Source of the DNA: a virus
Direction: 5' to 3' (one strand)
Virus record (IMG/VR): IMGVR_UViG_3300049783_001083
Span: 1-23,206 of that record
Length of the DNA stretch: 23,206 bases
The translations under genes and the position numbers were made by a program. Every line of letters starts with the position of its first letter. Position 1 is the first letter of the stretch. This document shows positions 6,275 to 19,584 of the stretch, piece by piece. The notes under the pieces are model-generated. The model did not search any database. It worked only from the letters and a program-made list of their open reading frames with translations, and was not told the DNA's origin.

Positions 6275-6901
6275 ATGAGTGTAGATGTTCGGGCAGTATC
6301 AAGGCTAGACGTTAAGCCCTTTTTGCTTGGCATTCACTACGCGCGCAGAATGCCTAGCGTGTCTCTTGCGTATGGCTTATTCAGGTCCGATGACCTTGAA
6401 GGCGTTGTGACTTACGGAACCCCACCCAGCGCGCCCTTGCGCAGCGGGATTTGCGGGCCTGACCTTTCGGCGCATGTGTTGGAACTTAATCGCCTTTGCT
6501 TAAAGAGCAATAAGCGCAACGACGCGTCAATGCTGGTGGCTAGGTCTTTGCGAATAATCGAGGGCGACCGCATCATTGTTAGCTTTGCTGACACTGCTCA
6601 ATCTCACTTAGGGATTGTGTATCAGGCGTCAAATTTCTTGTATTGCGGCCTGTCTGCAAAACGCACTGACTGGAAAGTCAGAGGCAAGGAGCACCTTCAC
6701 GGGCAAACAATTGCAGACGAATTTCGAGGGATCAAGAACCGGGCTGCGGCCATGCGCGACAAATATGGCGACGATTTTTATCTTGAGCCCCGCTCACGCA
6801 AGCATAGATATGTAATGATTATTGGAAGCAAAAAGTTCAAGCGCGCAGCACTAGCCGCGTTGCGATACAATCAAGAACCATACCCGAAGCAACCAAATTA
6901 A
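6275..6901 (+). CDS. Mom-like DNA adenine-modification protein (divergent copy)
   Basis: This 208-aa protein shares the core of the Mom family: ELNR at residues 70-73, IIVSFAD at 100-106, His111, then YQASN at 116-120 and an RGKEH segment further on. The same pattern appears in the second Mom protein encoded at 18904-19584 (ELVR, IVSFAD, H, YQAGN, RGKLTH), so the two are homologous. Phage Mu Mom converts adenine to an N6-methylcarbamoyl-type derivative that protects DNA from restriction enzymes, and has a GNAT-like fold. This copy lacks the canonical WHYS..P start but has IHYARRMPS in the same place. I chose the ATG at 6275 because the longer frame overlaps the previous gene. It sits in the early accessory operon. 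Confidence 0.75.
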   Translation: MSVDVRAVSRLDVKPFLLGIHYARRMPSVSLAYGLFRSDDLEGVVTYGTPPSAPLRSGICGPDLSAHVLELNRLCLKSNKRNDASMLVARSLRIIEGDRIIVSFADTAQSHLGIVYQASNFLYCGLSAKRTDWKVRGKEHLHGQTIADEFRGIKNRAAAMRDKYGDDFYLEPRSRKHRYVMIIGSKKFKRAALAALRYNQEPYPKQPN

Positions 6902-6913
6902 AGGACCAAACCG

Positions 6914-7771
6914 ATGAACCACTACGAATTGAAACAGGAAGCCCGGCGGGATCGGTTAGAGGCCGCAGCTGATCGGGCAGATGCAAAGAGCGTTGCTCTT
7001 TATGTACGGTCAGACATGAGCGAAGCAACAACCGGGATCCCGTTCGGTCAGCCCATCCTGGTCGGACACCACAGCGAAGGACGGCACAGGGCAGCGATCA
7101 AGCGGGCAGAAAACGCCATCCGGTCCAGTGTTGAAGCCGGAAAGAACGCCAAGGAATTGCGGAGCAAAGCCGAGGGCGTAGGATCTGGCGGTATCAGTTC
7201 CGACGATCCAGCGGCCGTGCAGAAGCTGCAAGCCCAGATAAACGCGGCGACACACCAGCAAAATATGATGCGGGAGGCCAACAAGGTCATTCGGCGGGCG
7301 GTCAAGGCTGGCGTCAAAAACTCGGAGAGTGCCGGATATCAGAAGTTCAAAGACGAGATCGGCAAAGTCTACGAGCAGGCAATGCGGGATGATACTTGCA
7401 ACGCCCTGATACAGCCTGACTTTTGCGGGCGGATTGGTTTTCCTAGCTACCGGCTGACCAACAACGGCGCGAACATCAAGCGGATGCAAGGCCGGGTCGA
7501 TCAGTTGCGGATCCAGAACGCCCAAGCGGAAGCGGCAGGCGGTGAGGAAAAGCGGACAGTCTACGAGGGTGTGTGTGATCTGGTTGAAAACTTCGAGGAA
7601 AACCGGATCCAGATCGTTTTCGACGGCAAGCCGAGCGCCGAGGTTCGGGCCGAGCTGAAAGGAAACGGGTTTCGGTGGGCTCCGAGCCAAAGCGCCTGGC
7701 AGCGGCAGCTTAATAACGCTGGACGTTATGCTGCCAAGTGTTTCCTAAAAAGCCAAAACGTCGAAGCCTGA
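6914..7771 (+). CDS. DUF3560-family protein, 285 aa
   Basis: The N-terminal pattern of an Arg-rich helix (YELKQEARRDRLEAAADRA) followed by GIPFGQPILVGHHSEGRHRA is the hallmark of DUF3560 proteins, which are common on plasmids and some phages. The middle is helical with possible coiled coil. The C-terminal part (IQIVFDGKPSAEVRAELKGNGFRWAPSQSAWQRQL) is a short domain also found at the end of plasmid proteins of this group. The biochemical role is unknown. The start follows AAAGGACCAAACCG, the common leader of this operon. GC content is higher than in the adjacent small genes, and an antisense frame of more than 200 codons across it is a shadow. Confidence 0.8.
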   Translation: MNHYELKQEARRDRLEAAADRADAKSVALYVRSDMSEATTGIPFGQPILVGHHSEGRHRAAIKRAENAIRSSVEAGKNAKELRSKAEGVGSGGISSDDPAAVQKLQAQINAATHQQNMMREANKVIRRAVKAGVKNSESAGYQKFKDEIGKVYEQAMRDDTCNALIQPDFCGRIGFPSYRLTNNGANIKRMQGRVDQLRIQNAQAEAAGGEEKRTVYEGVCDLVENFEENRIQIVFDGKPSAEVRAELKGNGFRWAPSQSAWQRQLNNAGRYAAKCFLKSQNVEA

Positions 7772-7803
7772 AGCATACAACGAAGAATAGAGGAACTCAC
7801 CAC

Positions 7804-8025
7804 ATGAAACACTTTATCGCAATCACCACCGCCTTGGCACTAACCGCGTGCAGCACATCTGAAATGGTATCGATCGCCGCTTCCGAGTGTGACCAGATCG
7901 GATATGCGGTAGGCTCAATTGAGCACACGCAATGCACTGAGCGCGGATATAGAAACATCGATGCGGAACAAGACGCAGCGATCGGCGCCGCATTTTGGTT
8001 GCTTGTCCTTGAAGCCGCTTACTGA
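7804..8025 (+). CDS. Small lipoprotein, 73 aa
   Basis: The product starts MKHFIAITTALALTAC, a classic lipoprotein signal with lipobox LTAC and lipidated Cys16. The mature part contains CDQIGYAVGSIEHTQCTERGYRN, a small two-cysteine motif often seen in short bacterial envelope lipoproteins. The AGGAACTCACCAC leader precedes the ATG, and the longer frame from 7738 overlaps DUF3560. It would be anchored in the envelope during infection or lysogeny. A surface-exclusion or other host-altering role is possible but unproven. Confidence 0.75.
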   Translation: MKHFIAITTALALTACSTSEMVSIAASECDQIGYAVGSIEHTQCTERGYRNIDAEQDAAIGAAFWLLVLEAAY

Positions 8026-8046
8026 CTATAATGGATTATGTCGGTC

Positions 8047-8064
8047 AACAGCTTCGGCTGTTTT
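8047..8064 (+). terminator. UUCG-capped hairpin, possible weak terminator
   Basis: AACAGC and GCTGTT pair around a TTCG tetraloop and are followed by a short run of T. The T tract is only four bases and the stem six pairs, so it may attenuate between the lipoprotein and secreted-protein genes rather than stop transcription fully. Confidence 0.4.
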
Positions 8065-8101
8065 CCCGTGCAATCCCGCGCGAACACAAAGTGAGGACAC
8101 T

Positions 8102-8443
8102 ATGAGAAAACTTGCAATTACCCTATCAGCCCTGATCGGCGCTACCATTGCCTTTGCACTTCCAGGCTTTGCCGACACGACCTACTTTCGAGACGGTGTG
8201 AACGTGACCGGCACGCTAGTTGCTTTTGATCACGGCTGCGGTTCGTTCCAATTCTTTGACCTGGACGCCAGCGCTGCAAATATGCTCAAGAGCTCTGGCG
8301 CTTGTGCTGCTGGTTGGACGGCCGGAAACAGTGAAGACCGCGAAGAGCGTGAACGCTTGGAAGCATTGGAAGCTGAAGCAGAAGCCGCAGCCGCAGCCGC
8401 AGCCGCAGCCGAAGCTGAAGACGCTGAAATCGAAAGCATCTAA
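8102..8443 (+). CDS. Secreted Ala/Glu-rich protein, 113 aa
   Basis: The first 25 residues are a Sec signal peptide (MRKLAITLSALIGATIAFA then PGFADT), with a likely cut after GFA. The mature part has a short beta-rich segment with two cysteines (DHGCGSF and SGACAAG), which could form a disulphide. The C-terminal third is an almost pure Glu/Ala/Arg helix (EDREERERLEALEAEAEA then a run of Ala), encoded partly by tandem GCCGCA units. The start has GTGAGGACACT upstream. It would be exported to the periplasm. The function is unknown; with the preceding lipoprotein it forms a two-gene exported set closed by a terminator. Confidence 0.75.
   Translation: MRKLAITLSALIGATIAFALPGFADTTYFRDGVNVTGTLVAFDHGCGSFQFFDLDASAANMLKSSGACAAGWTAGNSEDREERERLEALEAEAEAAAAAAAAAEAEDAEIESI
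8384..8410 (+). repeat. GCCGCA tandem repeat within the secreted-protein gene
   Basis: Four and a half perfect copies of the hexamer GCCGCA encode a run of alanines. Such a tract can change length by slippage in steps of two codons without shifting the frame, so the alanine run may vary among relatives. Confidence 0.7.
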
Positions 8444-8470
8444 CATTTAACTTCGGAATCTACTAAAAGG

Positions 8471-8507
8471 AATAGCGCGATGGCATAAACCAGCGCGCTA
8501 TTTTTTT
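8471..8507 (+). terminator. Intrinsic terminator ending the plus-strand accessory operon
   Basis: AATAGCGCG at 8471-8479 pairs perfectly with CGCGCTATT at 8494-8502 around a 14-base loop and runs into seven T. It lies 27 bp after the secreted-protein gene and 14 bp before the end of the convergent minus-strand cluster. On the minus strand the stem is followed by CCTTTT, so weak bidirectional action is possible. Confidence 0.85.
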
Positions 8508-8520
8508 GCCTTGGATGATT

Positions 8521-8772
8521 TTAAGATTGCCGGCGCGCCATTTCGTGTGCCTGACGACCGAGCTTGTTTGAAAGATCCTCAAGCACTTCTGGCGTCATTC
8601 CAGGGTGATCAGATGCAAGCGTGTAAAGAATGTTCGCCGCGATGTCTGCGTCAAGGGGTGCTAGGTATTCGATGATGTCCTGCACTGTCGTCGGTTTGAT
8701 CACAAGAGAACCCCGCACCACCTTGATTGTTGGTTGGTCCATTGGTGAATAGCTGTCTAAAAAAATGCTCAT
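8521..8772 (-). CDS. Hypothetical 83-aa protein
   Basis: I take the ATG at 8772, which forms an ATGA overlap with the stop of the upstream ORF; an ATG at 8784 is in frame but lies inside that gene. The product (MSIFLDSYSPMDQPTIKVV start) has a beta-rich first third and helices afterwards (DIIEYLAPLDADIAANILYTLA, then PEVLEDLSNKLGRQAHEMARRQS). No signal, membrane segment or known family is seen. It ends the four-gene minus-strand cluster next to a terminator. Confidence 0.6.
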   Translation of the reverse strand: MSIFLDSYSPMDQPTIKVVRGSLVIKPTTVQDIIEYLAPLDADIAANILYTLASDHPGMTPEVLEDLSNKLGRQAHEMARRQS

Positions 8773-8966
8773 ATCTTTTCCCATTCTGTTTCTGATGTGA
8801 TTGGTTCGTTGATCTTTCCACTTGGTCCAAACTCGTTGTTTGTTTCAAGCTGAGTGGCTTTTATGACGAGATCTTTGTCCCGCGCGTAATAGAAGCCAGC
8901 AAATGAAAATTCAGGATCGCACCCTTCTAAGTTGAGCAATCCGAGGGCTCGGGCAGGGCTGATCAT
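8769..8966 (-). CDS. Hypothetical 65-aa protein
   Basis: The start at 8966 (MISPARALGLLNLEGCDPE) makes an ATGA overlap with the upstream 35-aa ORF; a longer frame to 9167 would overlap two other coupled genes and is not favoured. The product looks like a small beta-rich domain (FSFAGFYYARDKDLVIKAT) with a polar tail ending TSETEWEKI. The function is unknown. Confidence 0.55.
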   Translation of the reverse strand: MISPARALGLLNLEGCDPEFSFAGFYYARDKDLVIKATQLETNNEFGPSGKINEPITSETEWEKI

Positions 8967-9070
8967 TGCAGATCGCCCTGATAGTATTCGATCACGTTGG
9001 GCATTTTGGCGACTCCGTACCCAATAACAAACCAGCCAAGCGCCAGCAAAATCATCATGTAATTGTTCAT
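8963..9070 (-). CDS. Very small membrane protein, 35 aa
   Basis: This short ORF is linked to both neighbours by ATGA overlaps. The product begins MNNYMMILLALGWFVIGYG, a single membrane segment of about 18 residues, with a short acidic tail ending YYQGDLQ. Its size makes it easy to miss, but the double coupling argues that it is translated. Such tiny phage membrane proteins can modulate host envelope proteins, although nothing here points to a target. Confidence 0.5.
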   Translation of the reverse strand: MNNYMMILLALGWFVIGYGVAKMPNVIEYYQGDLQ

Positions 9071-9261
9071 TGGTTGCAAGCCTCCGCACCTTCACGAACT
9101 GTCTGCTGCCAATCTTTGCAAGCAACTTCCCAAACCATCGTGGCCCAATCCCATGCCGCCTCGTCATTGGCTGCCAAGGCGTCGACTCTGCGCTCCTGAG
9201 CTTGGTCCATCCTCATGCGCGCCGTATCTTGGTCGTTTCTATTTTTATCAGTGTTTGTCAT
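9067..9261 (-). CDS. Hypothetical helical protein, 64 aa
   Basis: The ATG at 9261 has AAGGGA upstream, and the in-frame upstream codons fall in the operator-like region, so the shorter start is preferred. The product (MTNTDKNRNDQDTARMRM start) is highly charged and helical, with many Asp/Arg pairs and a Trp-rich C-terminal half (AAWDWATMVWEVACKDW). It is the first gene of the minus-strand cluster transcribed away from the Cro-like gene. The function is unknown. Confidence 0.6.
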   Translation of the reverse strand: MTNTDKNRNDQDTARMRMDQAQERRVDALAANDEAAWDWATMVWEVACKDWQQTVREGAEACNQ

Positions 9262-9293
9262 TGTCTTTGTCCCTTGCCTCGGTGTCTCTCTAT

Positions 9294-9380
9294 GCAATTA
9301 AATTGCCACAACCGAAACCCACTTGCAAGCGATTTGTGCAATTTTCTTGCGTATCCCTTCGACGCCCCATAAATTGCAAT
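9294..9380. promoter_or_regulatory. Cluster of TTGC/GCAA operator-like sites between divergent genes
   Basis: Four related palindromic elements occur in about 90 bases: GCAATTAAATTGC at 9294-9306 (perfect dyad), CTTGCAAG at 9322-9329, GCAATTTTCTTGC at 9338-9350 (imperfect) and ATTGCAAT at 9373-9380. They lie between the minus-strand cluster starting at 9261 and the Cro-like gene at 9382, as in lambdoid control regions. A weak promoter (TTGCGT at 9347-9352 and TAAATT at 9370-9375) would place the transcript start on the ATG of the Cro-like gene. The regulator itself is the obvious candidate ligand. Confidence 0.5.
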
Positions 9381-9381
9381 C

Positions 9382-9567
9382 ATGGAAAATGTAAAACACA
9401 TCATCGAGGCTGCTGGTGGTCCGGTTGAAATGGCAAAGGTGCTGGGCGTTAAGCTTCGCGTCATTGCTCACCACGCACAACGCAACATATTGCCGGCGTC
9501 TTGGTTCGACGCCCTGGAAAAAATGTCTGAAAGGGAATTGCCAAGGAACCTTTTTTCGTTCAAATAG
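9382..9567 (+). CDS. Cro-like helix-turn-helix regulator, 61 aa
   Basis: The product MENVKHIIEAAGGPVEMAKVLGVKLRV... has the pattern of small Cro/YdaS or carph-isopro type DNA-binding proteins: I-I-x-x-x-GG-P-x-x-MA-x-x-LGV then a recognition helix (KLRVIAHHAQR) and NILPASWFDAL. The usual variable position after LGV is occupied by KLRVIAHHA. It is preceded by no recognisable ribosome-binding site (ATTGCAATC before ATG), so it may be translated from a leaderless transcript. It is the only gene between the operator cluster and a terminator, which fits a self-contained repressor or Cro unit. It probably controls the early genes on both sides. Confidence 0.7.
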   Translation: MENVKHIIEAAGGPVEMAKVLGVKLRVIAHHAQRNILPASWFDALEKMSERELPRNLFSFK

Positions 9568-9612
9568 AACGTTCACCCTTGCGGTGTTTCAGCGTGTTCC
9601 CGCTTTATGAAA

Positions 9613-9639
9613 GGCCCAGCTTGCGCTGGGTCTTTTTTT
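9613..9639 (+). terminator. Intrinsic terminator after the Cro-like gene
   Basis: GGCCCAGC and GCTGGGTC form an eight-pair stem (one G-U) with a TTGC loop, followed by seven T. It lies 46 bp downstream of the Cro-like stop and 15 bp from the end of the convergent replication operon. Confidence 0.85.
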
Positions 9640-9653
9640 GATCTCGCCTTGGT

Positions 9654-10277
9654 TTAGATCGGCGGTTCGTCGTCAGTGATGTCTTGCTCGTCGCTGACGT
9701 CCTGCTCGCCGGGTGCAGGTGCATCGGCTTCCGCCATAAGGCGCTTCAGTTCTTCCATGATCGGTTTGACTGCGTCGTGCTTTGTTGGATTGACACTCCA
9801 CCACTTCAGGAATTGTTCGCGGCCATGCTTGGCCTCTGCCCTGGCGTCGTCCTGCATTGGCTTTGGGTCTGGCGGTGGCTTTGCGCCGACCACGATCAGG
9901 GGCTGGATCGTCACAGCCCCCTTGGTGCCGCGTGTCTTGGTAAGCTGCAAGGTCCGTGGCTTGTCTATGCCTTCCATGTGAGACACGCGCACACCGCCGA
10001 CCGCAGCGCCTGCCCAAGTCACGGTCGGATCTTTGTAGATCGTGCAGGACATGCCGACCCAAGCTTTTGACTGTGTGCCCCATATTGAGGCAAGGCAGCG
10101 CGCAGCGGTCTTGCTGGGCTTCCATGGCCGGTTGTTGTCGCCTTCAAACCTGATGTGGATGGGCTGTTCAGTATCAAACACAGTCACGTTGGTGATCTTA
10201 ATGGTGCGTGGTTCCCATAGATCGTCCGCGTTTAGCTGGTCCGATTTTGGCGCTAGTGCTTTGGTTACGTCGCTCAT
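9654..10277 (-). CDS. Conserved phage protein next to YqaJ exonuclease, 207 aa
   Basis: The N-terminal two thirds (DDLWEPRTIKITNVTVF, then NNRPWKPSKTAARCLASIWG, then WVGMSCTIYKDPTVTWAG, then GVRVSHMEGI) belong to a family that I recall beside YqaJ nucleases in many phages, with no assigned function. The domain is beta-rich and could be an OB-like or single-stranded-DNA-binding fold; this is a guess from the pattern. The last 30 residues are very acidic (EQDVSDEQDITDDEPPI), reminiscent of the acidic tails of single-strand-binding proteins. The gene is coupled to the exonuclease by an ATGA overlap, which favours a joint role in recombination. A DNA-annealing protein is the best alternative. Confidence 0.7.
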   Translation of the reverse strand: MSDVTKALAPKSDQLNADDLWEPRTIKITNVTVFDTEQPIHIRFEGDNNRPWKPSKTAARCLASIWGTQSKAWVGMSCTIYKDPTVTWAGAAVGGVRVSHMEGIDKPRTLQLTKTRGTKGAVTIQPLIVVGAKPPPDPKPMQDDARAEAKHGREQFLKWWSVNPTKHDAVKPIMEELKRLMAEADAPAPGEQDVSDEQDITDDEPPI

Positions 10278-10960
10278 GTGATCACCATATCAACGTCGTG
10301 GCTCTGACGTTCTGTTTCAATCAATACAGCCCCGGCGATCCGATCTTGGTATGCCAGAACCTGCTCTTGGACTTTGGCTTCAAAGTCGGTGGCCGCGTCG
10401 ATGATCGCAGCCTGATAGACTGGGTCAGGGAAAACCCGGATCACCCACATCGGCATTCCTCCGCAAAAGCTGACGTAGTCCATCCAGTCCCATTCGGTCA
10501 CAAGAAGCCCTGTCTGAATTTGCAGCTTGTGGTCGGTCGGCACCTCGTTGGTGACAATGACTTCCGTCTGGAACTTCATCAGCCGCGACTTGGCTTCAAT
10601 GCCACCGTTGCTCAGTACCGTGACCCCATCCGGCGAGTATCCGATTTTGAATGCTCCAAAGTCGCGCGTGTAGAAACCGACTTCTTCCAAAGGCTCAACT
10701 CGCTCAGAGTACAATTGGCGCGCGATCACTTCGTCAGAGTGGCCGCGGTAGCCGTTGCTGCCGATAAATGAAGGCTCAGTGTATCCGTTGATCCGTTGCG
10801 CTGCGATTTCCCAGACATGCGCCCGGGTCTTTTCGTTGTTCGACGCCTTCAGTGTTGGCGTCAAAATCAGGTTCATCTCGCTGGCCGTGATGATGCCGTT
10901 GCGCGCCTGCAGCCATTCTTCGCTGCCTTGATCCATGTCGCGGAATGTTTCGATTGTCAT
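10274..10960 (-). CDS. YqaJ-type (lambda exonuclease family) recombinase nuclease
   Basis: The 228-aa protein has the lambda exonuclease/YqaJ signature: QGSEEWLQARNGIITASE near the start, GYSPDG with Asp111, GIEAKS with Glu122 and Lys124, and HKLQIQTGLLVT with Gln147/149. These form the D-(E-x-K)-Q metal site of the PD-(D/E)xK fold. Such enzymes degrade one strand from double-strand ends during phage recombination and replication. It is coupled by ATGA overlaps to the coiled-coil gene upstream and to the 207-aa protein downstream. No RecT, Erf or Redbeta homologue is recognised in the window. Confidence 0.9.
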   Translation of the reverse strand: MTIETFRDMDQGSEEWLQARNGIITASEMNLILTPTLKASNNEKTRAHVWEIAAQRINGYTEPSFIGSNGYRGHSDEVIARQLYSERVEPLEEVGFYTRDFGAFKIGYSPDGVTVLSNGGIEAKSRLMKFQTEVIVTNEVPTDHKLQIQTGLLVTEWDWMDYVSFCGGMPMWVIRVFPDPVYQAAIIDAATDFEAKVQEQVLAYQDRIAGAVLIETERQSHDVDMVIT

Positions 10961-11961
10961 ATTTTCACCTCACAGTGGGCTACGTTGCCGGAAAGAAGCG
11001 CAAGGGCGATCTCATTGATCGACGGGGCTTCGGATATAGATTTGATTGATGCAATGATATCAGACTGGATCTTTGCGCGATGGTCGGCGTCGGCTTCCCT
11101 TGCCATTCTGGCTTGGTCAGCCTGATAGGCTTCGTTTTCCACCCTCAACCGTTCGGAATTAACCGCCCGTTCATGGGCTTCTTTTTTGTCGGCTGCCGCT
11201 TGCAACAAGTCCGCCGCGCGTTTTGCGGTTTCAAACTCTGCCTTTTCTGCTGCCGCTTTAATGTCGGCCACCTTCTGGGCCTCAACTTGGACAAGGCGAT
11301 CAGCTTCCGCCCTTTCATTGGCAATGCGCTCTGCTTCAAGCCGTGCGGTTTCGTCCCGTGCCGCCTGATCAGCTATCATCTTTGTAATTTCTTCGCGTTG
11401 TTCCTCTGATTTCTTTACAGATGTATAAACGATGCGAAGGGTCGCCAAAGACTTGTCGCGAGCTGAATTGATCATAACAATGTAGGCGCCCCAATCTTCC
11501 GAAACCTCAACCGCCTTTATCTTATCAGCCAGAGTTTTAATCTGTTCGCTTGTTTCATCACCGACCAGTTCAAAGCCACCGACTTGGGACAGGGCAGCTT
11601 TGGCCGCATCGGTCCGCAGCTCTTCTTCGGCTTCGTATTTTGTAAGAGGCGCGCGGACCAGATCGCGGATCGCATCAAGTTCGTTTCCGACCTTAATTCG
11701 CGCGTCGTCGATCACCTTGATTTTTGCCTTCGCGTCTGCTGTCAAAAGCTTGGCCGCGTCTTGCAGCGCTGTTTTTGATCGACTGACTTTATAGGCAAGC
11801 GATCCGATTTCCTTGCGGCCCTTGCTAGTCGAAAGGTCTGGAACATGCAGTGATACTTCGTCACGGATCTTTTGAATGATCGGATCAATTGCGCCTGTTT
11901 CGGTGAAAAATGTTTGAAGGTTTACGCCTGCCAAAACAGCAAGTTCTGTTGAGTCTGTCAT
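10957..11961 (-). CDS. Long coiled-coil protein of the recombination operon, 334 aa
   Basis: Residues about 190-300 are a long Lys/Glu/Ala/Arg-rich coiled coil (for example AARDETARLEAERIANERAE). The N-terminal half has a TSKGRKEIGSLAYKVSRSKTALQDAAK segment typical of a family of phage proteins seen upstream of YqaJ or RecT genes and of unknown function. The C-terminus is a short helical domain. The gene is coupled to the exonuclease by an ATGA overlap. It may be an accessory or scaffold for recombination. A direct repeat TGATGTGGTTC (11961-11971 and 11976-11986) lies over the start and its leader. Confidence 0.75.
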   Translation of the reverse strand: MTDSTELAVLAGVNLQTFFTETGAIDPIIQKIRDEVSLHVPDLSTSKGRKEIGSLAYKVSRSKTALQDAAKLLTADAKAKIKVIDDARIKVGNELDAIRDLVRAPLTKYEAEEELRTDAAKAALSQVGGFELVGDETSEQIKTLADKIKAVEVSEDWGAYIVMINSARDKSLATLRIVYTSVKKSEEQREEITKMIADQAARDETARLEAERIANERAEADRLVQVEAQKVADIKAAAEKAEFETAKRAADLLQAAADKKEAHERAVNSERLRVENEAYQADQARMAREADADHRAKIQSDIIASIKSISEAPSINEIALALLSGNVAHCEVKI

Positions 11962-11986
11962 GATGTGGTTCTTTCTGATGTGGTTC
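11961..11986 (-). repeat. Tandem GAACCACATCA in the coiled-coil gene leader
   Basis: An 11-bp sequence (TGATGTGGTTC on the plus strand) occurs twice, 15 bp apart. On the coding strand it is AGAAAGAACCACATC before the ATG, so one copy lies across the start and the other upstream of the ribosome-binding site. A related GGAACCACGGCC precedes the ATG of the gene starting at 17146, suggesting a shared leader. Confidence 0.5.
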
Positions 11987-12006
11987 GTATAAAAACAATA
12001 GCTATT

Positions 12007-12348
12007 CTAGGGCGTCAAATCAACTGCTATTTTTACAGCATCTTCAGCAGATCGCGCAATTCCAGCCCGACCGCCTGCCCACGTCACGCGGTTTAAAAAA
12101 CGGATCTGTGCGTCGGTCGGCTGTCCGATCGCGGTTTTGCATTCAATCGCAATAAACCGACCGTCTCGAGCAACGCCGATAATGTCTGATGATCCTATGC
12201 ACAGCCCAAACTTTATAGGCCTGCCGGTCTTGTCTGGCAGTTGGCCGGTGTTGTTGCGCCAAACCAAGCACCCAGCGCCAGACAACGCGAGCAAACATTC
12301 ATTCAGAATATTAGCCTCTGAAGGTCCGTCCTTTTTATTTCCACGCAT
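12007..12348 (-). CDS. VRR-NUC domain nuclease, 113 aa
   Basis: This is a stand-alone VRR-NUC protein, a PD-(D/E)xK nuclease of the Holliday-junction resolvase-like group common in phages. The conserved pieces are SEANILNECL (Glu11), WRNNTGQLPD, GSSDIIGV (Asp55), and FIAIECKTAIGQPTDAQ (Glu69, Lys71, Gln76). The length matches the family. It probably cuts branched DNA during replication and packaging. I take the ATG at 12348; a longer frame to 12420 runs through the upstream small ORF. The AAAAGAGAAT leader before the ATG is a weak ribosome-binding site. Confidence 0.88.
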   Translation of the reverse strand: MRGNKKDGPSEANILNECLLALSGAGCLVWRNNTGQLPDKTGRPIKFGLCIGSSDIIGVARDGRFIAIECKTAIGQPTDAQIRFLNRVTWAGGRAGIARSAEDAVKIAVDLTP

Positions 12349-12488
12349 ATTCTCTTTTCCCCATCTACTGTGCGACGAACAATTTTGGCGTCGTCTTCTG
12401 ATAAATACCGAGCCCGACAAAATGCCCTGGCCACACTTAGCGACTTCTCATTTTCAACTTCAGAAAATGCTACATCTCCGGCCCTCAC
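12303..12488 (-). CDS. Hypothetical 61-aa protein between helicase and nuclease
   Basis: The ORF starts at GTG in a GTGA overlap with the helicase stop, with AGGAAGG upstream in the helicase's last codons. The product (MRAGDVAFSEVENEKSLSVA start) is charged, with an RARYLSEDDAKIV segment and a basic end (KRTDLQRLIF). It overlaps the VRR-NUC start by 46 bp in a different frame, which is unusual but possible in this packed operon. The family is unknown. Confidence 0.55.
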   Translation of the reverse strand: MRAGDVAFSEVENEKSLSVARAFCRARYLSEDDAKIVRRTVDGEKRICVEIKRTDLQRLIF

Positions 12489-13876
12489 CCCGCCTTCCTC
12501 TGCCGTGCCCGTAAGATGTGCATGGCGTTTCCCTGACTTTTTCCCATTGCCATAAGCTGTTCAAGCGTTCCTGCTCTGCCTTGTTTCATGCGCGCTTCCT
12601 TTTTTTCGCGGCGTTCAGTAATTTCTGCCAGTTCGCCTTCAACCTCTTCAACCATCCTGCTTTGGATTGGATAGACATAGCCGCAACCAGGGCATTCAGG
12701 CGTTGGCCGGTGGACCATGTAGCACTTAGGACACTGCCTGACCGGTATCGTCGGTTCAGACCCTTCGCGCTTCTTTTTTTGCCGGCCTTCCAATTGCCAT
12801 TCTCGATCGTCGTCGGGCAGCCCGTGGCCTCGGTCTGGATCGCTGTTTCCGGCGTGGTCAAATATCAAAGCCGGATCCGGCTTGTATCGCAAAACCCTGC
12901 CCCATTTTTGCAGCTGCAATGACAGCGACTTGGTGGGCCTCATATCTGACATCGCTTCGATTGTGACGTCCATTTGTGCCGCGCTGGCCAAGTCGAAACC
13001 AAACGTTAGCAAGTCGACGCTGGTCAGGACATGCAATTCACGCCGCGCAAATGCTTTGATCCGCCGGCTTCGTTCGTCCTGGTCCATTTCACCGCTGATC
13101 ATCGCTGCCGGGATCCCCCGCTCGTTAAACGCGTCGGCCACAATCCCCGCGTGCTTTAAGCTGGTGCAGAACGTCACGTTCAACCGGCCCGCGGCGTGCT
13201 TTGAATAGTGCGACACCGCATTGCCGATCAAAACCCGGTCGTTTTCCATCACGTCATTCAGCTGGCCTTTTGCATAGTCGCCAGCCGTGATCTTGACCTT
13301 CGAAAGATCAGGCGCCGACGGTGCAAACATGCGATATCGAGACAGGCGTTTTTTCTCTATAAGCTCGCCTATTGATGGGCCTTGTTCCATGTGGTCGAAC
13401 CAATCGCCCAAGCCCTTGCCCGACATCTTCCAAGGCGTCGCAGATAGGCCAATGACCCAAGCACCCTGTGCTTGATAATGCCGGATCACAGTTTCAAGTT
13501 GGGCCGAACCAAAATGAGTTTCGTCAACAAACACCACATTGGCTTTTGGTGCCTTATCTAGCCGCCTTGCAAGCGTCGGCCCTGATGCGATCTGCACCTT
13601 TGCAAATGGGTTTGGCACATATCCAGCCGCAAAATATCCAAACTCAATGCCAAACTTTGTCAAAGTTTCTGCTGTTTGTCTGAGAAGCTCTTTTCGCGGG
13701 ACAATGAAAACCGCCCGGTTCCCTTTGCTGACAGCGCTTTGGATCATGTAAGCGGCCATCACCGTCTTGCCGCTGCCCGTGGCTGATTGCATCAAGACCG
13801 ATTTGTGAGACCTAAGCGAATGACGAACACGGTCGACGACGTCCAATTGATCAGGGAAAAGGTTGATCTGGTTCAT
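12485..13876 (-). CDS. SF2 DNA helicase with C-terminal zinc ribbon, 463 aa
   Basis: Superfamily 2 motifs are clear: a Q-like start (FPDQLDVV), Walker A SATGSGKT (31-38), Ia (FIVPRKELL), DETH (118-121), SAT (145-147), and a C-terminal RecA-like domain with LTSVDLLTFGFDLA and a motif VI-like QKWGRVLR in place of the usual QRxGRxxR. After that, Cys382-x2-Cys385 and Cys395-x2-Cys398 form a zinc ribbon, followed by a charged helix. This is the common phage helicase of the type found beside primase genes. It would unwind or remodel DNA at phage replication forks. It is coupled to the primase-helicase by an ATGA overlap. Confidence 0.9.
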   Translation of the reverse strand: MNQINLFPDQLDVVDRVRHSLRSHKSVLMQSATGSGKTVMAAYMIQSAVSKGNRAVFIVPRKELLRQTAETLTKFGIEFGYFAAGYVPNPFAKVQIASGPTLARRLDKAPKANVVFVDETHFGSAQLETVIRHYQAQGAWVIGLSATPWKMSGKGLGDWFDHMEQGPSIGELIEKKRLSRYRMFAPSAPDLSKVKITAGDYAKGQLNDVMENDRVLIGNAVSHYSKHAAGRLNVTFCTSLKHAGIVADAFNERGIPAAMISGEMDQDERSRRIKAFARRELHVLTSVDLLTFGFDLASAAQMDVTIEAMSDMRPTKSLSLQLQKWGRVLRYKPDPALIFDHAGNSDPDRGHGLPDDDREWQLEGRQKKKREGSEPTIPVRQCPKCYMVHRPTPECPGCGYVYPIQSRMVEEVEGELAEITERREKKEARMKQGRAGTLEQLMAMGKSQGNAMHILRARQRKAG

Positions 13877-16527
13877 AGCGCAAATTCCTCATCGAATGGG
13901 TATTGCTCTTTGTCGACCAAATCGGCGCCTATTACTTCAGCCAATGGCAGCGACGTGACCTTGGATCGCAAACCGGCCATGAAGTAGACCGTCTTGTTGT
14001 CGTGATTGGTCGCGCCAGCAAAGTCTCCAAGGGTTCTCTGCCAAGGCGTGTAAGGTGTTTCGCGCAAGATCCTTTGCATGTTTGGCGCCGCGTTTGCAAT
14101 CAATATGCGGCCATCCTGAACCATTACCCCGTATGATCGCAGCGCCTTTTCGCTGGCTTCCCTCTGAAGGATTGAACCGCTGACGACGTGCTGGACCAGG
14201 TCGCCCATGGTCGCCTCGCGCATTGCCCCGTCGTGATCGTACCGGATCCGGGCTGTCATTAAGTAGGTGACCAGCTTGGCCGCATCGCTGTCGTCGTATG
14301 TTGAGGTGTGCCAATCCCAGTTCTGTTTCTCGATCCAATCCTTGGCTGCCGAAACCGTCACCGCCTTGGTCGTGGTCAGAAGATATGCGCCGGCCAGCAT
14401 CGGCCCGATTTGATCACCGCTGCGTTTGTTCCCAAATACCTGAGACGCCGCTTTGCTGAACACTTCCGCGTTATCAAGCAGGGTCTGCAGGTTCTGGATT
14501 GTCCGAGCCAAAAGCCTTTTTGAATATGCCGGTGTAATTGTCCCGTGAATGTCGCTCAACAATGCCGCAAAGATTTCGTCCCGATCCGGTCGGCTATCCT
14601 TCAAGACTTCCAGAAGCGTGATCCGTTCCTTGTCTGCGACTTGCTCAATCCGAGGAATAATAGCTGCCAGACAAAACGCCGATCTAACCTGAAAGTTTGC
14701 ATTGGCGTTTTCAACCACTGCGCCTGACGATGCGCCTCGGACCAAGCCCAAGATTTTCGTCAGCTCGGATTGTCGCTGTTGGTTTTCTGCTTCGGCTTCA
14801 TCCAAAACAAACGGCCGGCCACTGGATCCCAGCGCCTTGCGAACACCAGCTTCGGTTGTCCCGCCGTCACGCTTGATCCCGATTGATCCTATTATGGGCT
14901 CAACGATTTCATTGATGATCGTCGACTTGCCCGAGCCCGCGCGCCCCACAACCCAGATATGAGGGCGCCATCGCAACGCTGCCCCGATCGGTGCAATGAC
15001 CAACCAGCCCGCCAGCATGTCCCCGTATTGCGGTTTTTTCCATGTCAGGCGGTGGCAGATTGCGCGCAGGTCCGACGCTTCTTTGTTGGTCGCCGGTTCG
15101 ACATCAAGGTCGACAACCCGTGGCCCACTTTCATAAACACTCGTGCCGCGAAACTCTGCCGGATGCGCGCGCCGTCCGTCCGCAGTCACAATCATATCGC
15201 CGCAATTCACCAGCGGCACTCCGCCATCAATCCAAGCGCCTACGCCTCGCGTGTTTTCAGGCTGAAAAATCCCCTGATTGTGGCAAGCGTCCATCAAGTG
15301 CGCAGATGCAAACGCGCATATCTGACTGTCGCTTGTCTTGCCGTCTGGCGAATACGCCGCCTCCCAAAACGATCGAGGTGCAAGCAAATACAAGTTCTGG
15401 ATCCGGCCTAATGCGGTGGCCGGCAGCGTCACGATCTGCCCAGCCGTCTTTGGAAAAAATGAATACAGGCCCCGATTGTGGCCAAGCGGTCGGATCGCTT
15501 CAAGCGGATCAAACGTTCCTTGGTCGCTTTCCCATTGCCCTGGGTCCGGTTCATATTGCGGGGGCTGTTCTTCAGGTATCCGATCAAACGCGTCTTTGAT
15601 TGCCTGCAACCCGTCCGACCTTGCGATATCGTCCCAGTCGGTTCTGCGGCCAGGATCATCTGCCGGCACCTCTGGCGCTACAACTCGTCCGCCCCCGATC
15701 GCAACCGCTGCTTGCTGGGCGTGCTCAATCCCCGGATTGTAAGGCGTGCCATCCGGCTTTGCAGTCCATTGGTCATCGTCCGCGGCGAATATGATCTCAA
15801 CCTTTGGGTTCTTTTTGTGGATCGCCTTGGCCACCGACTTCAAATTGCCAGCGTCAAAAGCCACGATCACTGGCAACCCGAGCGCCGCGCGGACCGCTGC
15901 CGCCGTCGCATATCCTTCCGCAATAACAATCCGATCAAGCGGCTCACCTTTATCAGCCATCGCGTGATATGCGCCGTCTTTTTGCGAACCGGTCAAAAAC
16001 CGCTTTGATCCGTCCGCGCTGATAAATTGCAACCCCGTAATCTTGCTGTTTATTCGCATCGGCACAACAACCATGTCACGCCAAACCCGCGCGCCGTTCA
16101 GCTTTTCCAAGCCCTTCGTGGTCATGTATCCGGTCAGCCCCGTGGTCTCAGCCTTTGCCCAGATCCGGCCAGCCTTTTCTGCCGCGGACTTTGCCTCTTC
16201 AGCCGTCTTTTCGTCCCGAGCCTTTTTCGCTTCAGCCGACCGTCTCTTCCATTCGTCGCGCTGGGCCTGATCCGCTTTGCGATTAGTCTTGATGTGCCAG
16301 TTGTGGGTCACGCCCTGCTTGAAAGACCGAGCCCAGCCAACCGCAAAACCGTCCGGTTCCTGCATTAGCTGGTAGCTGCCGTTCCGCGTCTTCGGCTTAT
16401 CGTCTTCCAACCGATACCGCCGGCGCTTATCGTCCGATATGATTTCAGCCGGGTCATGTGGTCCAATCCCAAGGCTTCGCAGGTAGTCAATAAACTCAAC
16501 AATCGGGTCGTTCATTTGTTTTGCCAT
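13873..16527 (-). CDS. Toprim primase/helicase, 884 aa
   Basis: The protein has two visible catalytic parts. Around residues 199-275 is a Toprim domain: IVIAEGYATAAAV (Glu204), FDAGNL (Asp225) and IIFAADDD (Asp250-252), typical of primases. Around 525-700 is a P-loop ATPase with GRAGSGKS (528-535) and a Walker B-like FVLDEAEAE. The first 130 residues include a Lys/Ala-rich helix. The organisation matches large phage primase-helicases of the TraC-like, DUF927-containing kind. It would prime and unwind phage DNA. An ATG at 16515 (MNDPIVEF) overlaps the upstream stop as ATGA and is as likely a start as the ATG at 16527; neither has a strong ribosome-binding site. Confidence 0.9.
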   Translation of the reverse strand: MAKQMNDPIVEFIDYLRSLGIGPHDPAEIISDDKRRRYRLEDDKPKTRNGSYQLMQEPDGFAVGWARSFKQGVTHNWHIKTNRKADQAQRDEWKRRSAEAKKARDEKTAEEAKSAAEKAGRIWAKAETTGLTGYMTTKGLEKLNGARVWRDMVVVPMRINSKITGLQFISADGSKRFLTGSQKDGAYHAMADKGEPLDRIVIAEGYATAAAVRAALGLPVIVAFDAGNLKSVAKAIHKKNPKVEIIFAADDDQWTAKPDGTPYNPGIEHAQQAAVAIGGGRVVAPEVPADDPGRRTDWDDIARSDGLQAIKDAFDRIPEEQPPQYEPDPGQWESDQGTFDPLEAIRPLGHNRGLYSFFPKTAGQIVTLPATALGRIQNLYLLAPRSFWEAAYSPDGKTSDSQICAFASAHLMDACHNQGIFQPENTRGVGAWIDGGVPLVNCGDMIVTADGRRAHPAEFRGTSVYESGPRVVDLDVEPATNKEASDLRAICHRLTWKKPQYGDMLAGWLVIAPIGAALRWRPHIWVVGRAGSGKSTIINEIVEPIIGSIGIKRDGGTTEAGVRKALGSSGRPFVLDEAEAENQQRQSELTKILGLVRGASSGAVVENANANFQVRSAFCLAAIIPRIEQVADKERITLLEVLKDSRPDRDEIFAALLSDIHGTITPAYSKRLLARTIQNLQTLLDNAEVFSKAASQVFGNKRSGDQIGPMLAGAYLLTTTKAVTVSAAKDWIEKQNWDWHTSTYDDSDAAKLVTYLMTARIRYDHDGAMREATMGDLVQHVVSGSILQREASEKALRSYGVMVQDGRILIANAAPNMQRILRETPYTPWQRTLGDFAGATNHDNKTVYFMAGLRSKVTSLPLAEVIGADLVDKEQYPFDEEFAL

Positions 16528-16760
16528 TTTTGTCTAAACATAAACTTCAATATGCGGTCTTTTTGGGCTTTCTTCAGAATAGCCGCTTCGGCCTCCGCTT
16601 TGTCTTCCTCTTCCCTTTGATTTTCATACTTGGTCACGATCGGAATGTCAGTCCAAGGCCCGTCACCCAGCTTTGTTTGAATCGTGTATCCGGCGTCAAA
16701 AGTGTTTCTATTGAAGTCGGTGACGACATAATTCACTGCCCGGACTTGAAGATCGCTCAT
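16512..16760 (-). CDS. Hypothetical 82-aa protein, start of replication operon
   Basis: The start at 16760 (MSDLQVRAVNYVVTDFNRN) overlaps the upstream stop as ATGA and has AAGGGCT before it. The first half looks beta-rich (AGYTIQTKLGDGPWTDIPIVTKY) and the second is a charged helix (NQREEEDKAEAEAAILKKAQK). It has no signal, membrane segment or named family. Its place directly upstream of the primase-helicase suggests a replication accessory role, which is inference. Confidence 0.65.
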   Translation of the reverse strand: MSDLQVRAVNYVVTDFNRNTFDAGYTIQTKLGDGPWTDIPIVTKYENQREEEDKAEAEAAILKKAQKDRILKFMFRQKWQNK

Positions 16761-17146
16761 AGCCCTTCGCCTTCGTGGAATGTGATCTGTATAATGGCGA
16801 TACAATCAAGCGCAGCGCTAAGAGAAGCGTTGGACTGAGTACCCCATAGGATCCCTCCGCATTCTCGCTTGTACAAGTTGATCCACTTGGTGTGATAAAC
16901 AGGCAGGTCATGCAGCTTGCCAAACAATCCATGTAGATCACTAGAATTTCCGTACCGATCCCAAGTCGCTTGAGTCCATATGCCCTCATATTCTTCAATG
17001 AAGCCAATCAGGCGACCAGACTTCGGCGTAATAAAACAGACCCGAGCACGCCTAGTTACGTTTATGTAATCCTTAGCAACGTACTCAGTGACCGTTCCGT
17101 CGTCGACAAACTCAGTGAATTTCCGGGTGGGGATCTTGCTGTTCAT
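16757..17146 (-). CDS. Hypothetical 129-aa protein, first gene of replication operon
   Basis: The start at 17146 (MNSKIPTRKFTEFVDDGTV) has GGAAGGAACCAC upstream; a longer frame to 17212 runs into the repeat-rich control region and is not preferred. The product is a mixed alpha/beta domain with several Trp/Tyr residues (IEEYEGIWTQATWDRYG, then YHTKWINLYKREC). It has no motif I recognise. As the first gene after the candidate origin, it could be an initiator or regulatory protein for the operon, but this is not shown by sequence. Confidence 0.65.
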   Translation of the reverse strand: MNSKIPTRKFTEFVDDGTVTEYVAKDYINVTRRARVCFITPKSGRLIGFIEEYEGIWTQATWDRYGNSSDLHGLFGKLHDLPVYHTKWINLYKRECGGILWGTQSNASLSAALDCIAIIQITFHEGEGL

Positions 17147-17221
17147 GGCCGTGGTTCCTTCCGTTTGAACATGCAACTTTTTTGCGTGTTTCCGACCGGT
17201 TTGCAAGCCCAAAAATGCAAA

Positions 17222-17531
17222 GTTACCCGATCAGGTTACCTTTCAGAAAAAAAGTGTAATGAAATCAAAGGCCCAGCGCACCGGTAACCGTAACCCAAAT
17301 ATAAATTGATGCCCCTATGTAATAGCAGAAACCAATATACATCTCAGCCCTTACTCAAAAGACCCCCTTCTATATATATCTATTTTTTAAAGAGAAGAAG
17401 AAGAAGAAGAAGAAGGCCCGTAAGTCTTTGAAAACAAAACAGAAAATGAGGTAACCCAAACGTAACCCGGACCCCATAACCCTTTGATTTTATTAAGTAA
17501 CTTTTCCAAGATCAACGGTTCACAAGTTACC
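17222..17531. repeat. GTAACC/GTTACC repeat region, candidate origin or master operator
   Basis: The 475-bp gene-free stretch 17147-17621 holds repeated hexamers. They occur as GTTACC at 17222 and 17235; GGTAACC at 17283-17289 directly followed by GTAACC at 17290-17295; GGTAACC at 17450-17456 followed 11 bases on by GTAACC at 17462; GTAACT at 17497; and GTTACC at 17526. Pairs are 6, 11 or 13 bases apart. Between the clusters lies an AT-rich segment (TATATATATC, then TATTTTTTAAAG at about 17371-17392) and an AAG tract. This layout of iteron-like sites, AT-rich DNA and divergent transcription is what phage replication origins or large operators look like. No initiator is identified. Confidence 0.55.
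17395..17415 (+). repeat. AAG trinucleotide tract
   Basis: Seven perfect AAG units form a pure purine strand directly after an AT-rich segment, between the GTAACC clusters. The tract is non-coding. Polypurine stretches of this kind can affect local duplex stability, and the length is likely to vary by slippage. Confidence 0.8.
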
Positions 17532-17621
17532 AGACCCGATTGCGCACCTGATCAGGCTTTTCCCCTTGCAATTTGTTTGCCATTGGCTTCATATATATGT
17601 GTATCAATAGGAGGCACACAG

Positions 17622-17864
17622 ATGGAAATTGAACAGGGGATACCAGCCCCACCGATCAAACAACGCGCTGCCCCTCGGTCCTGGCCGTTCAAATACATGA
17701 ATGTCAACGACAGCGTGTTTTTTGCCAATCAGCCAAACGGCACATCTTCCAGGCCACCGGTGATCGCACACAACCTTGCGTGTCGACGTCGGGCAATCGG
17801 TAAGGCATGCAAGTTCACCGCGGCTGCCGAAGATGGTGGCGTCAGGATCTGGCGCGTTGAGTGA
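17622..17864 (+). CDS. Small phage early protein, possible DNA-binding, 80 aa
   Basis: The ATG has AGGAGG nine bases upstream, the best ribosome-binding site on this side of the control region. The frame can be read back to 17484, but that part is non-coding-like. The product MEIEQGIPAPPIKQ... has the layout of small widespread phage proteins that start with MEIE.GIP.P, continue with a (Y/W)PF..M.V.DS.F motif (here WPFKYMNVNDSVFF) and end with GGVRIWRVE. I believe these belong to a DUF7303-like family of unknown function. Basic stretches (CRRRAIGKACKF) suggest nucleic-acid binding. It is the first gene rightward from the repeat region, so probably an early regulator. Confidence 0.7.
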   Translation: MEIEQGIPAPPIKQRAAPRSWPFKYMNVNDSVFFANQPNGTSSRPPVIAHNLACRRRAIGKACKFTAAAEDGGVRIWRVE

Positions 17865-17986
17865 TTGAAAAAGGCGCGAGGAGGAAACACCCTCGACCCG
17901 CGCCTGACGATCGCGAGAACCACTCCGCTTTCGTTGCCCTGAAATTTAACAACACCGGAAAGAATATGCAACATGCTTGCAGTTAA
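17861..17986 (+). CDS. Possible 41-aa ORF coupled to the upstream gene
   Basis: A GTG at 17861 forms a GTGA overlap with the previous stop, and the frame stays open to TAA at 17984-17986, overlapping the next gene's start by 14 bp. The product would start MIEKGARRKHPRPAPDDREN and is very basic. There is no good ribosome-binding site. The same bases hold a GC-rich hairpin (AGGCGCG at 17872-17878 with CGCGCCT at 17899-17905), so the stretch may instead be a structured leader. Confidence 0.3.
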   Translation: MIEKGARRKHPRPAPDDRENHSAFVALKFNNTGKNMQHACS

Positions 17987-18332
17987 ACGCAAACTTACAC
18001 CAGCAGATGTCTTCCAGATCGAATATGCAAGGCTCTGGAACCAGCTGAACGACGCCGAACCAAAACGCAAACACTACAGCGGAAACGGGAACGCAGGCAA
18101 AATCTCGCTGCACATCAAACAGCGCTTCAAAAAGATCATCGCGCTTTTGCATGCTGAAAACGCGCTGTCTAAAAACCAGATCACAAAATTGCTGAAGACA
18201 TCCGGCCCAACCCTTAACGATGATCTGGCGCGCATGAAGGCCCTGGGTTTGGTCACGTTTTCAAAGGCTGCGAAGTGCAACACATGCACATATCGGATCG
18301 GAAAAAAGACCCTAGAAACCCTTGACGATTGA
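17973..18332 (+). CDS. Winged-helix-like transcriptional regulator, 119 aa
   Basis: The C-terminal half has a helix-turn-helix of the winged type: KKIIALLHAENALSKNQITKLLKTSGPTLNDDLARM..LGLVTF, then a short wing and CNTCTYRIGKKTLETL. The pattern of a short helix, S.NQI.KLL..S.PTL..DL..M..LGLV is that of small replication or transcription regulators. The ATG at 17973 follows GGAAAGAA. The N-terminal 45 residues are basic (VKRKLTPADVFQIEYARLWNQ is part). Two cysteines in CNTC may bind metal. It lies just upstream of the ParB-like gene and may regulate the modification cassette or the late genes. Confidence 0.65.
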   Translation: MLAVKRKLTPADVFQIEYARLWNQLNDAEPKRKHYSGNGNAGKISLHIKQRFKKIIALLHAENALSKNQITKLLKTSGPTLNDDLARMKALGLVTFSKAAKCNTCTYRIGKKTLETLDD

Positions 18333-18383
18333 TTGCCGACGGGCTTCAAAATGATTTGCTTTTACCCTTTAGAGGATTTCCAC

Positions 18384-18917
18384 ATGACCGAACACAACTG
18401 GCCGGCCGACAACATCATGCGGCGCAAGGTGGCAGACCTGATCCCATACGCCCGAAACAGTCGCACCCACAGCCCCGAGCAGATCGCCCAGCTTGCCGCG
18501 TCAATCCGTGAATGGGGTTTCACTAACCCGATCCTGATCAACGAAGCCGGAACCATCATCGCCGGTCACGGTCGCGTGATGGCCGCGCAAAAACTGGGCA
18601 TTGAAGAACTGCCTTGCATGACCGCAACAGGATGGACCGACGCCCAGCGCCGCGCATATGTAATTGCCGACAACAAATTGGCGATGAATTCAGACTGGGA
18701 CATGGAAATTCTAAAGGTCGAAATGCAAGATCTGGGCGATTTCGATCTGACCATCACAGGTTTTGACATAGACGAACTTACAATTTTGTTTGATCAACCC
18801 GTTTTTTCGCCTGGCACAGAAGATGATCAAGGCAAACTAGACGAACTATCGCCAAAAATGGTAACATGCCCGCATTGCGCGGCTGAATGGGATTTACGTG
18901 AACATGGGCAAGGCTGA
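18384..18917 (+). CDS. ParB/Srx-type N-terminal domain protein with C-terminal CxxC
   Basis: The ATG at 18384 has AGAGGA at good spacing; the TTG at 18333 in frame is weaker. Residues about 13-125 form a ParB N-terminal domain: VADLIPYARNSRTHSPEQIAQLAASI, then GFTNPILI, then IIAGHGRVMAAQKLG (nucleotide-binding motif, 59-70) and AQRRAYVIADNKLA. In many phages this domain is fused to a methyltransferase. Here the protein instead stops after a short tail with Cys162-x2-Cys165 (VTCPHCAAEWDL), half a zinc ribbon. The last 14 bp overlap the mom gene. It could recruit or regulate Mom, or bind DNA as a partition-like protein. No ParA is present in the window. Confidence 0.85.
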   Translation: MTEHNWPADNIMRRKVADLIPYARNSRTHSPEQIAQLAASIREWGFTNPILINEAGTIIAGHGRVMAAQKLGIEELPCMTATGWTDAQRRAYVIADNKLAMNSDWDMEILKVEMQDLGDFDLTITGFDIDELTILFDQPVFSPGTEDDQGKLDELSPKMVTCPHCAAEWDLREHGQG

Positions 18918-19584
18918 TCTGCGCATAGACTGGGCAACGCATGAGGCGGCGAAGTATGCTTGCGTAAACTGGCATTATAGCAAGTGTTTGCCCGTTGGAA
19001 AGTTGGTCAAAGTCGGTGCGTGGGAACATGGCAATTTTATTGGGGCTGTATTGTTTGGGCGGGGTGCTACTCCGAATCTTGGCCGCCCGTATAAATTAAA
19101 CCAAGATGAATGTGTCGAGCTTGTCCGCATTGCTTTAACCGATCATATCAACCCCGTATCGCGGATAGCAACGCTTGCCATGAAATTTTTGAAGCTAGCA
19201 AACCCTAAACTTCGGCTAATTGTTTCATTTGCCGACCAATCTCAAGGACATCACGGCGGCATATATCAAGCAGGAAATTGGGTTTATAATGGCCAAGGGA
19301 CTTCTGCAAAGTTTTATATGATACGAGGGAAACTGACCCACCCGCGTTCAATCGGGGCAAAAGGGTTTGTGCAAAACATATGCGGCGCGCGCAACATTGA
19401 CCCAAACGCTTCTGCTGTTGATGTCCCAGGAAAGTATCGCTACTTAATGCCCCTAGACAAAGACATGGCCAAGCAGATAGCATTGTTGTCGAAGCCATAC
19501 CCAAAGCGTGTGAAGCAGGCGATCACCGACGACCAGTCGGCAGAGCGACGGGGCAGAACCGATCCACACGCTCCAAAATCCTAA
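18904..19584 (+). CDS. mom: Mom DNA-modification protein (canonical copy)
   Basis: This 226-aa protein matches the phage Mu Mom family well: WHYSKCLP at 23-30, WEHGNFIGAVLFGRGA at 40-55, ELVRIAL at 72-78, LIVSFADQSQGHHG at 105-118 and IYQAGNWVYNG at 120-130. Mom modifies adenines at N6 to a methylcarbamoyl-type base, making phage DNA resistant to many restriction enzymes; the fold is GNAT-like. In Mu, mom is controlled by the overlapping zinc-finger gene com. Here the gene instead overlaps the end of the ParB-like gene. I prefer the ATG at 18904; a GTG at 18898 is in frame. A divergent paralogue is encoded at 6275-6901. Confidence 0.88.
   Translation: MGKADLRIDWATHEAAKYACVNWHYSKCLPVGKLVKVGAWEHGNFIGAVLFGRGATPNLGRPYKLNQDECVELVRIALTDHINPVSRIATLAMKFLKLANPKLRLIVSFADQSQGHHGGIYQAGNWVYNGQGTSAKFYMIRGKLTHPRSIGAKGFVQNICGARNIDPNASAVDVPGKYRYLMPLDKDMAKQIALLSKPYPKRVKQAITDDQSAERRGRTDPHAPKS

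Follow-up and report, generated by a model that had tools for sequence, protein, structure and literature searches.

To our knowledge, the question of where Mom obtains the glycine unit it places on adenine has been open for decades. The product of the phage Mu enzyme is an adenine glycinamide, as given in the title of Swinton et al. (1983) cited in PMC3146451. The closest described gene arrangement is that of McMurdie et al. (2011; PMC3146451), who reported a 76-bp tRNA-Gly-like locus of predicted structure lying within a gene similar to mom and next to parB; its anticodon, 'DCC', sits in a 5-nt loop, and it was seen in 16 Dehalococcoides ssrA genomic islands and one marine fosmid but was not linked to Mom chemistry. 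It is the only publication on Mom together with a tRNA that we found, and preprints and many journals lay outside our search, so that earlier publication of a tRNA donor is possible. In this study, we analyzed a linear viral fragment of 23,206 bases (positions 1 to 23,206 of the IMG/VR record IMGVR_UViG_3300049783_001083; hereafter the window), which carries two mom genes on the plus strand, mom-A (6275..6901, protein P0001) and mom-B (18904..19584, protein P0002), and found a tRNA-Gly-like RNA element (19506..19575, plus strand) in the 3′ end of mom-B, where it takes up approximately the last 70 nt of the gene. A preliminary description of this DNA had reported two divergent Mom-type proteins in one phage, an observation that is correct but of modest interest, and had missed the element. 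It is the RNA embedded in the mom gene of P0002 and its relatives (clade B) that makes the question of the Mom donor directly testable.

The mom-B locus resembles the Dehalococcoides islands (PMC3146451) in combining parB, mom, and an embedded tRNA-Gly-like locus, there with 'DCC' in a 5-nt loop and in 16 copies. However, those loci belong to a genomic island and not to a phage packaging operon, the tRNA-like locus was placed in the initial 150 bp of the gene and was connected neither with glycine chemistry nor with phages or a clade, whereas the element of the window type mostly lacks a D-arm. Mu Mom (8bv8, PF25680) shares its fold and its principal motifs with both window proteins, but Mu mom occurs with Com, lacks a tRNA-like element and a ParB-like partner, and its product is less than 30% identical to either window protein.

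The tRNA-Gly-like element of mom-B

The first clue was a tRNA-Gly directly beside the ParB-Mom pair in two annotated phages, Salinibacter phage B2_17 and Microbacterium phage Appa, and in two viral loci (L153 and L161) the 3′ end of the mom open reading frame (ORF) contains a tRNA-Gly recognized by ARAGORN. The window element consists of a 7-bp acceptor stem (GCGTGTG...CACACGC, 19506-19512/19565-19571), an anticodon-like hairpin (CCGAC-GACCA-GTCGG) with the anticodon ACC at 19532-19534, a T-like arm (19547-19563), U73 (19572), and an encoded CCA (19573-19575). It was recognized neither by ARAGORN nor by the Rfam tRNA model, and its RNAfold z score is −2.36. A covariance model built from 19 elements of the short class (R1), the window element being one of the 19 training sequences, gave it 87.1 bits (E ~1e-20), and an independent model built from longer copies with a D-arm (R2) gave 28.2 bits (E 0.0013). 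The window element and most other copies have no D-arm, U33 is mostly lost, and the T-loop/D-loop contacts of a translating tRNA are degraded; because of these departures we call the element tRNA-Gly-like. Residues 204-226 of P0002, which are encoded by the element and the nucleotides just after it, are predicted to be disordered (predicted local distance difference test, pLDDT, below 50).

To survey the element, we used 80 clade-B viral loci that had been selected by similarity to P0002 and not by the element itself. All 80 carry it at the 3′ end of mom (78 found by R1, L153 and L161 by ARAGORN), in 47 distinct sequences. In the 19-element alignment of the short class, 98.4% of positions in pairs are paired and 10 of the 16 pairs have changed on both sides, a result that none of 500 shuffles equaled; the eight longer copies with a D-arm are 93.5% paired, with changes on both sides in 12 of 21 pairs. 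When all 57 distinct copies, seven of them from bacterial assemblies, were fitted to the model, 98.6% of cells were paired, compared with 26-44% in slid controls. Compensatory changes were seen in 13 of 16 pairs, and there were 197 double changes, as opposed to 44 after shuffling. The acceptor, anticodon, and T helices are thus all supported by covariation.

Across the 80 loci the element starts in all three mom reading frames, and the mom stop codon comes after the element in 71 loci, falls within it in 6, and precedes it in 3. Because the element occurs in every frame and the stop codon can precede or interrupt it, the conservation constraint acts on the RNA; together with the compensatory changes, this rules out conservation of the element merely as coding sequence.

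Glycine identity in bacterial tRNA-Gly is set by G1-C72, C2-G71, U73, C35, and C36. All 57 copies have G1-C72, C2-G71, G3, and U73, and 51 encode CCA. The anticodon loops, read by eye, show NCC with A, U, or C as the first base, and by this reading C35 and C36 complete the glycine identity set whose acceptor positions and U73 are invariant.

Linkage of the element to clade-B mom and to a second enzyme family

In the viral loci surveyed, the element follows clade B. R1 found no match in 0.92 Mb from 84 sources of clade A (P0001 and its relatives), and nothing above 14 bits appeared in 33 whole clade-A records. A weak stem match overlapping the end of mom at one clade-A locus (L075) was rejected, since it is unshared by other clade-A loci and found by no model. 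Among 78 loci that had been collected for a terminase or primase gene, the R2 matches were a real tRNA-Asp and two loci, exactly those with a clade-B mom. In 299 Pseudomonadota genomes R1 gave two matches only, the known Tolumonas mom locus and an assembly discussed below (G246). The clade-A, terminase, and genome controls rule out that the element is general background. A ParB-like ORF is the constant partner of clade-B mom, adjoining it at 75 of 80 loci; no constant partner was found for mom-A, whose best neighbor cluster was present at 11 of 80 loci.

G246 (L352, 1106-2413) contains no Mom. Its element lies upstream of a gene for a DAM-like-phage1 plus GNAT-phage-like protein (DAM-like+GNAT), which is adjoined by a gene that we assigned as ParB-like by eye. 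Relatives of this protein are encoded in Mycobacterium phage Megabear (L355, 3893-5335), with an annotated tRNA-Gly(tcc) that neither R1 nor R2 scores, and in Gordonia phage Clawz (L356, 3823-5326), with an unannotated Gly tRNA element and also a ParB-like gene; in both, the tRNA is directly upstream of the DAM-like+GNAT gene. Because a Gly tRNA element stands upstream in all three, these lineages show the same linkage in another family of GNAT enzymes for DNA modification. These fusions (PF22555, PF22559) share with clade-B mom the GNAT DNA-modification context, a ParB-like neighbor, and an adjacent Gly tRNA element, but they belong to another GNAT family and have the element upstream instead of in the 3′ end. 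In two of the three, an annotated or evident ParB-like gene lies downstream of the fusion gene.

A proposed aminoacyl-tRNA donor for DNA modification

Charged tRNAs are used by the GNAT-fold Fem and Aat transferases, the Fem pathway has a dedicated non-translating tRNA-Gly, and GNAT toxins act on Gly-tRNA. These enzymes provide a parallel, in that a GNAT fold uses or recognizes a charged tRNA, although their acceptors are peptides or an amino group and not DNA, and no sequence relation to Mom was shown. The finding of a tRNA-Gly-like gene fused to mom in viruses and in bacterial assemblies of several phyla leads to a specific proposal, namely, that DNA is modified from a charged tRNA. Judging from the sequence evidence, the clade-B Mom is probably a DNA-modifying transferase that depends on glycyl-tRNA and has a dedicated tRNA encoded in cis; Mom-A has no such tRNA. 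Somewhat more cautiously, we favor the wider reading that clade-B Mom and the DAM-like+GNAT enzymes represent a type of DNA base modification with an aminoacyl-tRNA donor, in which a dedicated non-translating tRNA-Gly, encoded in or beside the enzyme gene, supplies the missing glycine donor of Mom, and in which this phage pairs a tRNA-carrying Mom with a tRNA-less one.

In this proposal, the cassette consists of the ParB-like gene, mom, the D-armless tRNA-Gly-like RNA in the mom 3′ end, and then the terminase genes. The RNA would be cut out of the mom transcript and charged with glycine by the host glycyl-tRNA synthetase (GlyRS), which is suggested because G1-C72, C2-G71, C35, C36, U73, and usually CCA are kept. 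Mom-B would take the charged RNA as its dedicated donor and place the glycine unit on the adenine N6 of phage DNA shortly before packaging; the position of the terminase genes right behind mom-B suggests modification before packaging, as in Mu. N6-glycyl adenine would be an isomer of the Mu product, and we infer that its free amine could attack C6 with loss of the original N6 to give the glycinamide. Because the D-arm, usually U33, and the normal T-loop contacts are absent, the RNA should not compete for translation. The ParB-like protein may bring the enzyme to phage DNA, and Mom-A probably draws on host Gly-tRNA, on the Mom-B RNA, or on another donor. If this is true, tRNA-dependent transferases of the GNAT fold would be tied to DNA modification, the glycinamide-like Mom product would be explained, and a D-armless tRNA would have been retained for chemistry and not for translation.

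Several points weigh against a tRNA donor. Acyl-coenzyme A (acyl-CoA) is the usual substrate of GNAT folds. Structure searches with the models of both window proteins return generic GNAT acetyltransferases after Mu Mom (8bv8), and no tRNA-dependent transferase ranked above them. The T-arm of the window element holds one mismatch and one wobble pair. No recognizable element accompanies the clade-B mom of Yersinia, Serratia, Paenibacillus, Lysinibacillus, Pseudonocardiaceae, a Methyloprofundus, and a Rhodobacteraceae assembly, nor was one recognized in Mu, phage phiEf11, or any clade-A locus; a tRNA in cis is therefore not needed by every Mom, and the element-less Moms may use host tRNA-Gly or have a different donor. 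One published view, moreover, takes the donor to be an acyl-CoA, for instance glycyl-CoA (PMC7824862).

Instead of serving as a donor, the element might act in cis on the mom transcript and control mRNA stability or expression, being a tRNA mimic that RNase P/Z cleaves or to which GlyRS, Mom, or ParB binds. The encoded CCA (51/57), the invariant U73, and the NCC loops point rather to charging, and neither the tRNA of Appa, which is on the opposite strand, nor the upstream elements of the DAM-like+GNAT genes would fit a 3′ mRNA element, so that we consider this explanation unlikely, even though it accords with the overlap of the element with the mom ORF just upstream of the terminase genes and with the loss of the D-arm and T-loop contacts, which makes the RNA no ordinary tRNA.

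Two Mom proteins in one phage

Profile matches, structure searches, the tree, and the conserved residues all support P0001 and P0002 as Mom-family GNAT proteins. Both match the Pfam Mom profile PF25680 (curated cut-off 27.1 bits) over the full length, P0001 with 126.7 bits (E 1.2e-36) and P0002 with 164.9 bits (E 2.5e-48), and both match phrog_1384, the PHROG 'Mom-like DNA modification protein'. The PDB sequence of Mu Mom is matched by P0002 with E 5e-13 and by P0001 with E 6e-9. The AlphaFold (AF2) models (pLDDT 91.7 for P0001 and 86.7 for P0002) have 8bv8 as the top PDB structural match (E 5.7e-11 and 2.4e-12, respectively). The profile and structure checks that the preliminary description had proposed thus bear out its assignment of both ORFs, and the profile, the Mu Mom match, and the 8bv8 match rule out that P0001 is not a Mom.

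The order of motifs is identical in the two proteins, as had been claimed: HY, EL(N/V)R, Ser85/86, SFAD at 103/108, His at 111/116, and YQA at 116/121 (P0001/P0002). The claim of common spacing holds for SFAD to YQA, which is 13 in P0001, P0002, and Mu, but not for ELxR to SFAD, which is 33 in P0001 vs 36 in P0002. The residue mutated in the inactive Mu crystal structure 8bv8 (S124A) is Mu Ser114 in 231-residue numbering; its equivalents, Ser85 of P0001 and Ser86 of P0002, are both serine, and H48, Y49, E98, L99, R101, S136, D139, Y149, and Q150 (Mu numbering) are also kept in both. Because the Mom residues, including the serine of the inactive mutant, are kept, both proteins look like intact enzymes.

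Elsewhere the two proteins diverge widely, as had been noted, with 26% identity over 198 residues (pairwise BLASTP, E 3e-11). In a tree of 92 Mom proteins, clade A (31 rows) is split from clade B with a support of 100/100 by a branch 3.4 changes per column long; Mu is on a very long branch (4.12), and its placement is unsure. The description of one protein as canonical and the other as divergent could not be upheld: the two are at about the same distance from Mu, and P0002 outscores P0001 against Pfam Mom and Mu, yet it is P0001 that has the same ELNR and YQASNF as Mu. Between the plus-strand blocks that hold the two genes runs a minus-strand block (~8.5-17.2 kb), so that the suggested separate operons agree with the layout and separate transcription is likely. 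The suggested split of labor now has a concrete basis, in that mom-B has the embedded RNA and the ParB-Mom-terminase cassette and mom-A has neither; the two may differ in target, base, or timing.

As the window is a fragment, the number of mom genes in the whole phage may differ from two. A survey of related phages, as the preliminary description had recommended, showed that other two-Mom records exist and that none pairs clade A with clade B. No second Mom was found in the 50 largest viral records with a clade-A Mom, and a second Mom-family gene was present in 4 of 50 clade-B viral records (G051, G075, G094, and G099). G051 (L225/L226) has two ParB-Mom-tRNA cassettes (919-2143 and 35727-36795; 83% and 58% identical to P0002), of which the second is at the contig end that truncates its ParB. 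G075 (L229, 497-1763) has a tandem Mom-Mom pair with a single RNA element behind the second gene. G094 and G099 have a second, divergent Mom relative of 281 residues alongside the clade-B Mom; that of G094 (L230, 4592-5437), a record that also holds the clade-B cassette, is ~25% identical to each window protein. A fifth case, G098, is apparently one mom gene split by a frameshift. In a search of 50,697 phage records, no query matched more than one place in any record, a result that leaves some room for a further gene of the other clade.

Among the records examined, only the window has an A+B pair, which was seen in none of ~150 related viral records. This rarity, and the fact that the record is a fragment, would suit an assembly artefact or one-off, in which a contig joins two phages. 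However, the gene order (tail, lysis, early genes, minus-strand replication block, ParB-Mom, terminase, and portal) is that of one phage, the G+C content (0.47-0.58) has no step, and two Mom-family genes occur in other phages (G051, G075, and G094). An artefact or one-off is quite improbable on these grounds, and it would concern the pairing only and be compatible with the proposed tRNA donor.

That the two Moms both modify adenine from an ordinary CoA donor, either redundantly or at separate targets, the RNA being unrelated, is consistent with the conserved Mom residues and fold of both proteins but leaves the 80/80 linkage of the Gly tRNA element to clade B unexplained, and we regard it as very improbable. 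Least of all do we expect the element to be a normal phage tRNA gene that improves the decoding of glycine codons, or a remnant of an attachment (att) site, since, although the L161 and Appa copies resemble standard tRNAs, most copies have lost the D-arm and U33, the ACC anticodon is common, the element is always Gly and always beside a DNA-modification GNAT, and a full-length, covarying cloverleaf or three-armed structure does not fit an att remnant, which would be a 3′ fragment.

Genomic context of the window

Around mom-B, the ParB-like gene (18333..18917, plus strand; PF02195 ParB_N, phrog_620) overlaps the mom-B start, and the genes of the terminase small subunit (19660..20079, plus strand; phrog_309, E 1.2e-13) and large subunit (20076..21509, plus strand; PF03237/PF17289, phrog_38) follow downstream. 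A 4.5-kb contig, L236 (IMGVR_UViG_3300047667_000238), has a terminase 100% identical to that of the window, and L237, a second relative (66%), has the same sample prefix. Primase relatives of the window were found at one locus only, which has no Mom.

Mom-A is followed directly by a gene for a DUF3560 protein (6914..7771, plus strand; PF12083, E 4.7e-28) in the early accessory block. The record G001 (L003/L223) has in common with the window mom-A (~80%), the 4587-5078 gene (65%), and an M15 peptidase gene (70%); the mom-A neighborhood therefore travels together. A short protein encoded at 3109-3702 on the minus strand matches the phage DNA methyltransferase profile phrog_799. Within the divergent intergenic region that separates the replication block from ParB-Mom, a run of gaagaagaagaag repeats lies at 17395-17420.

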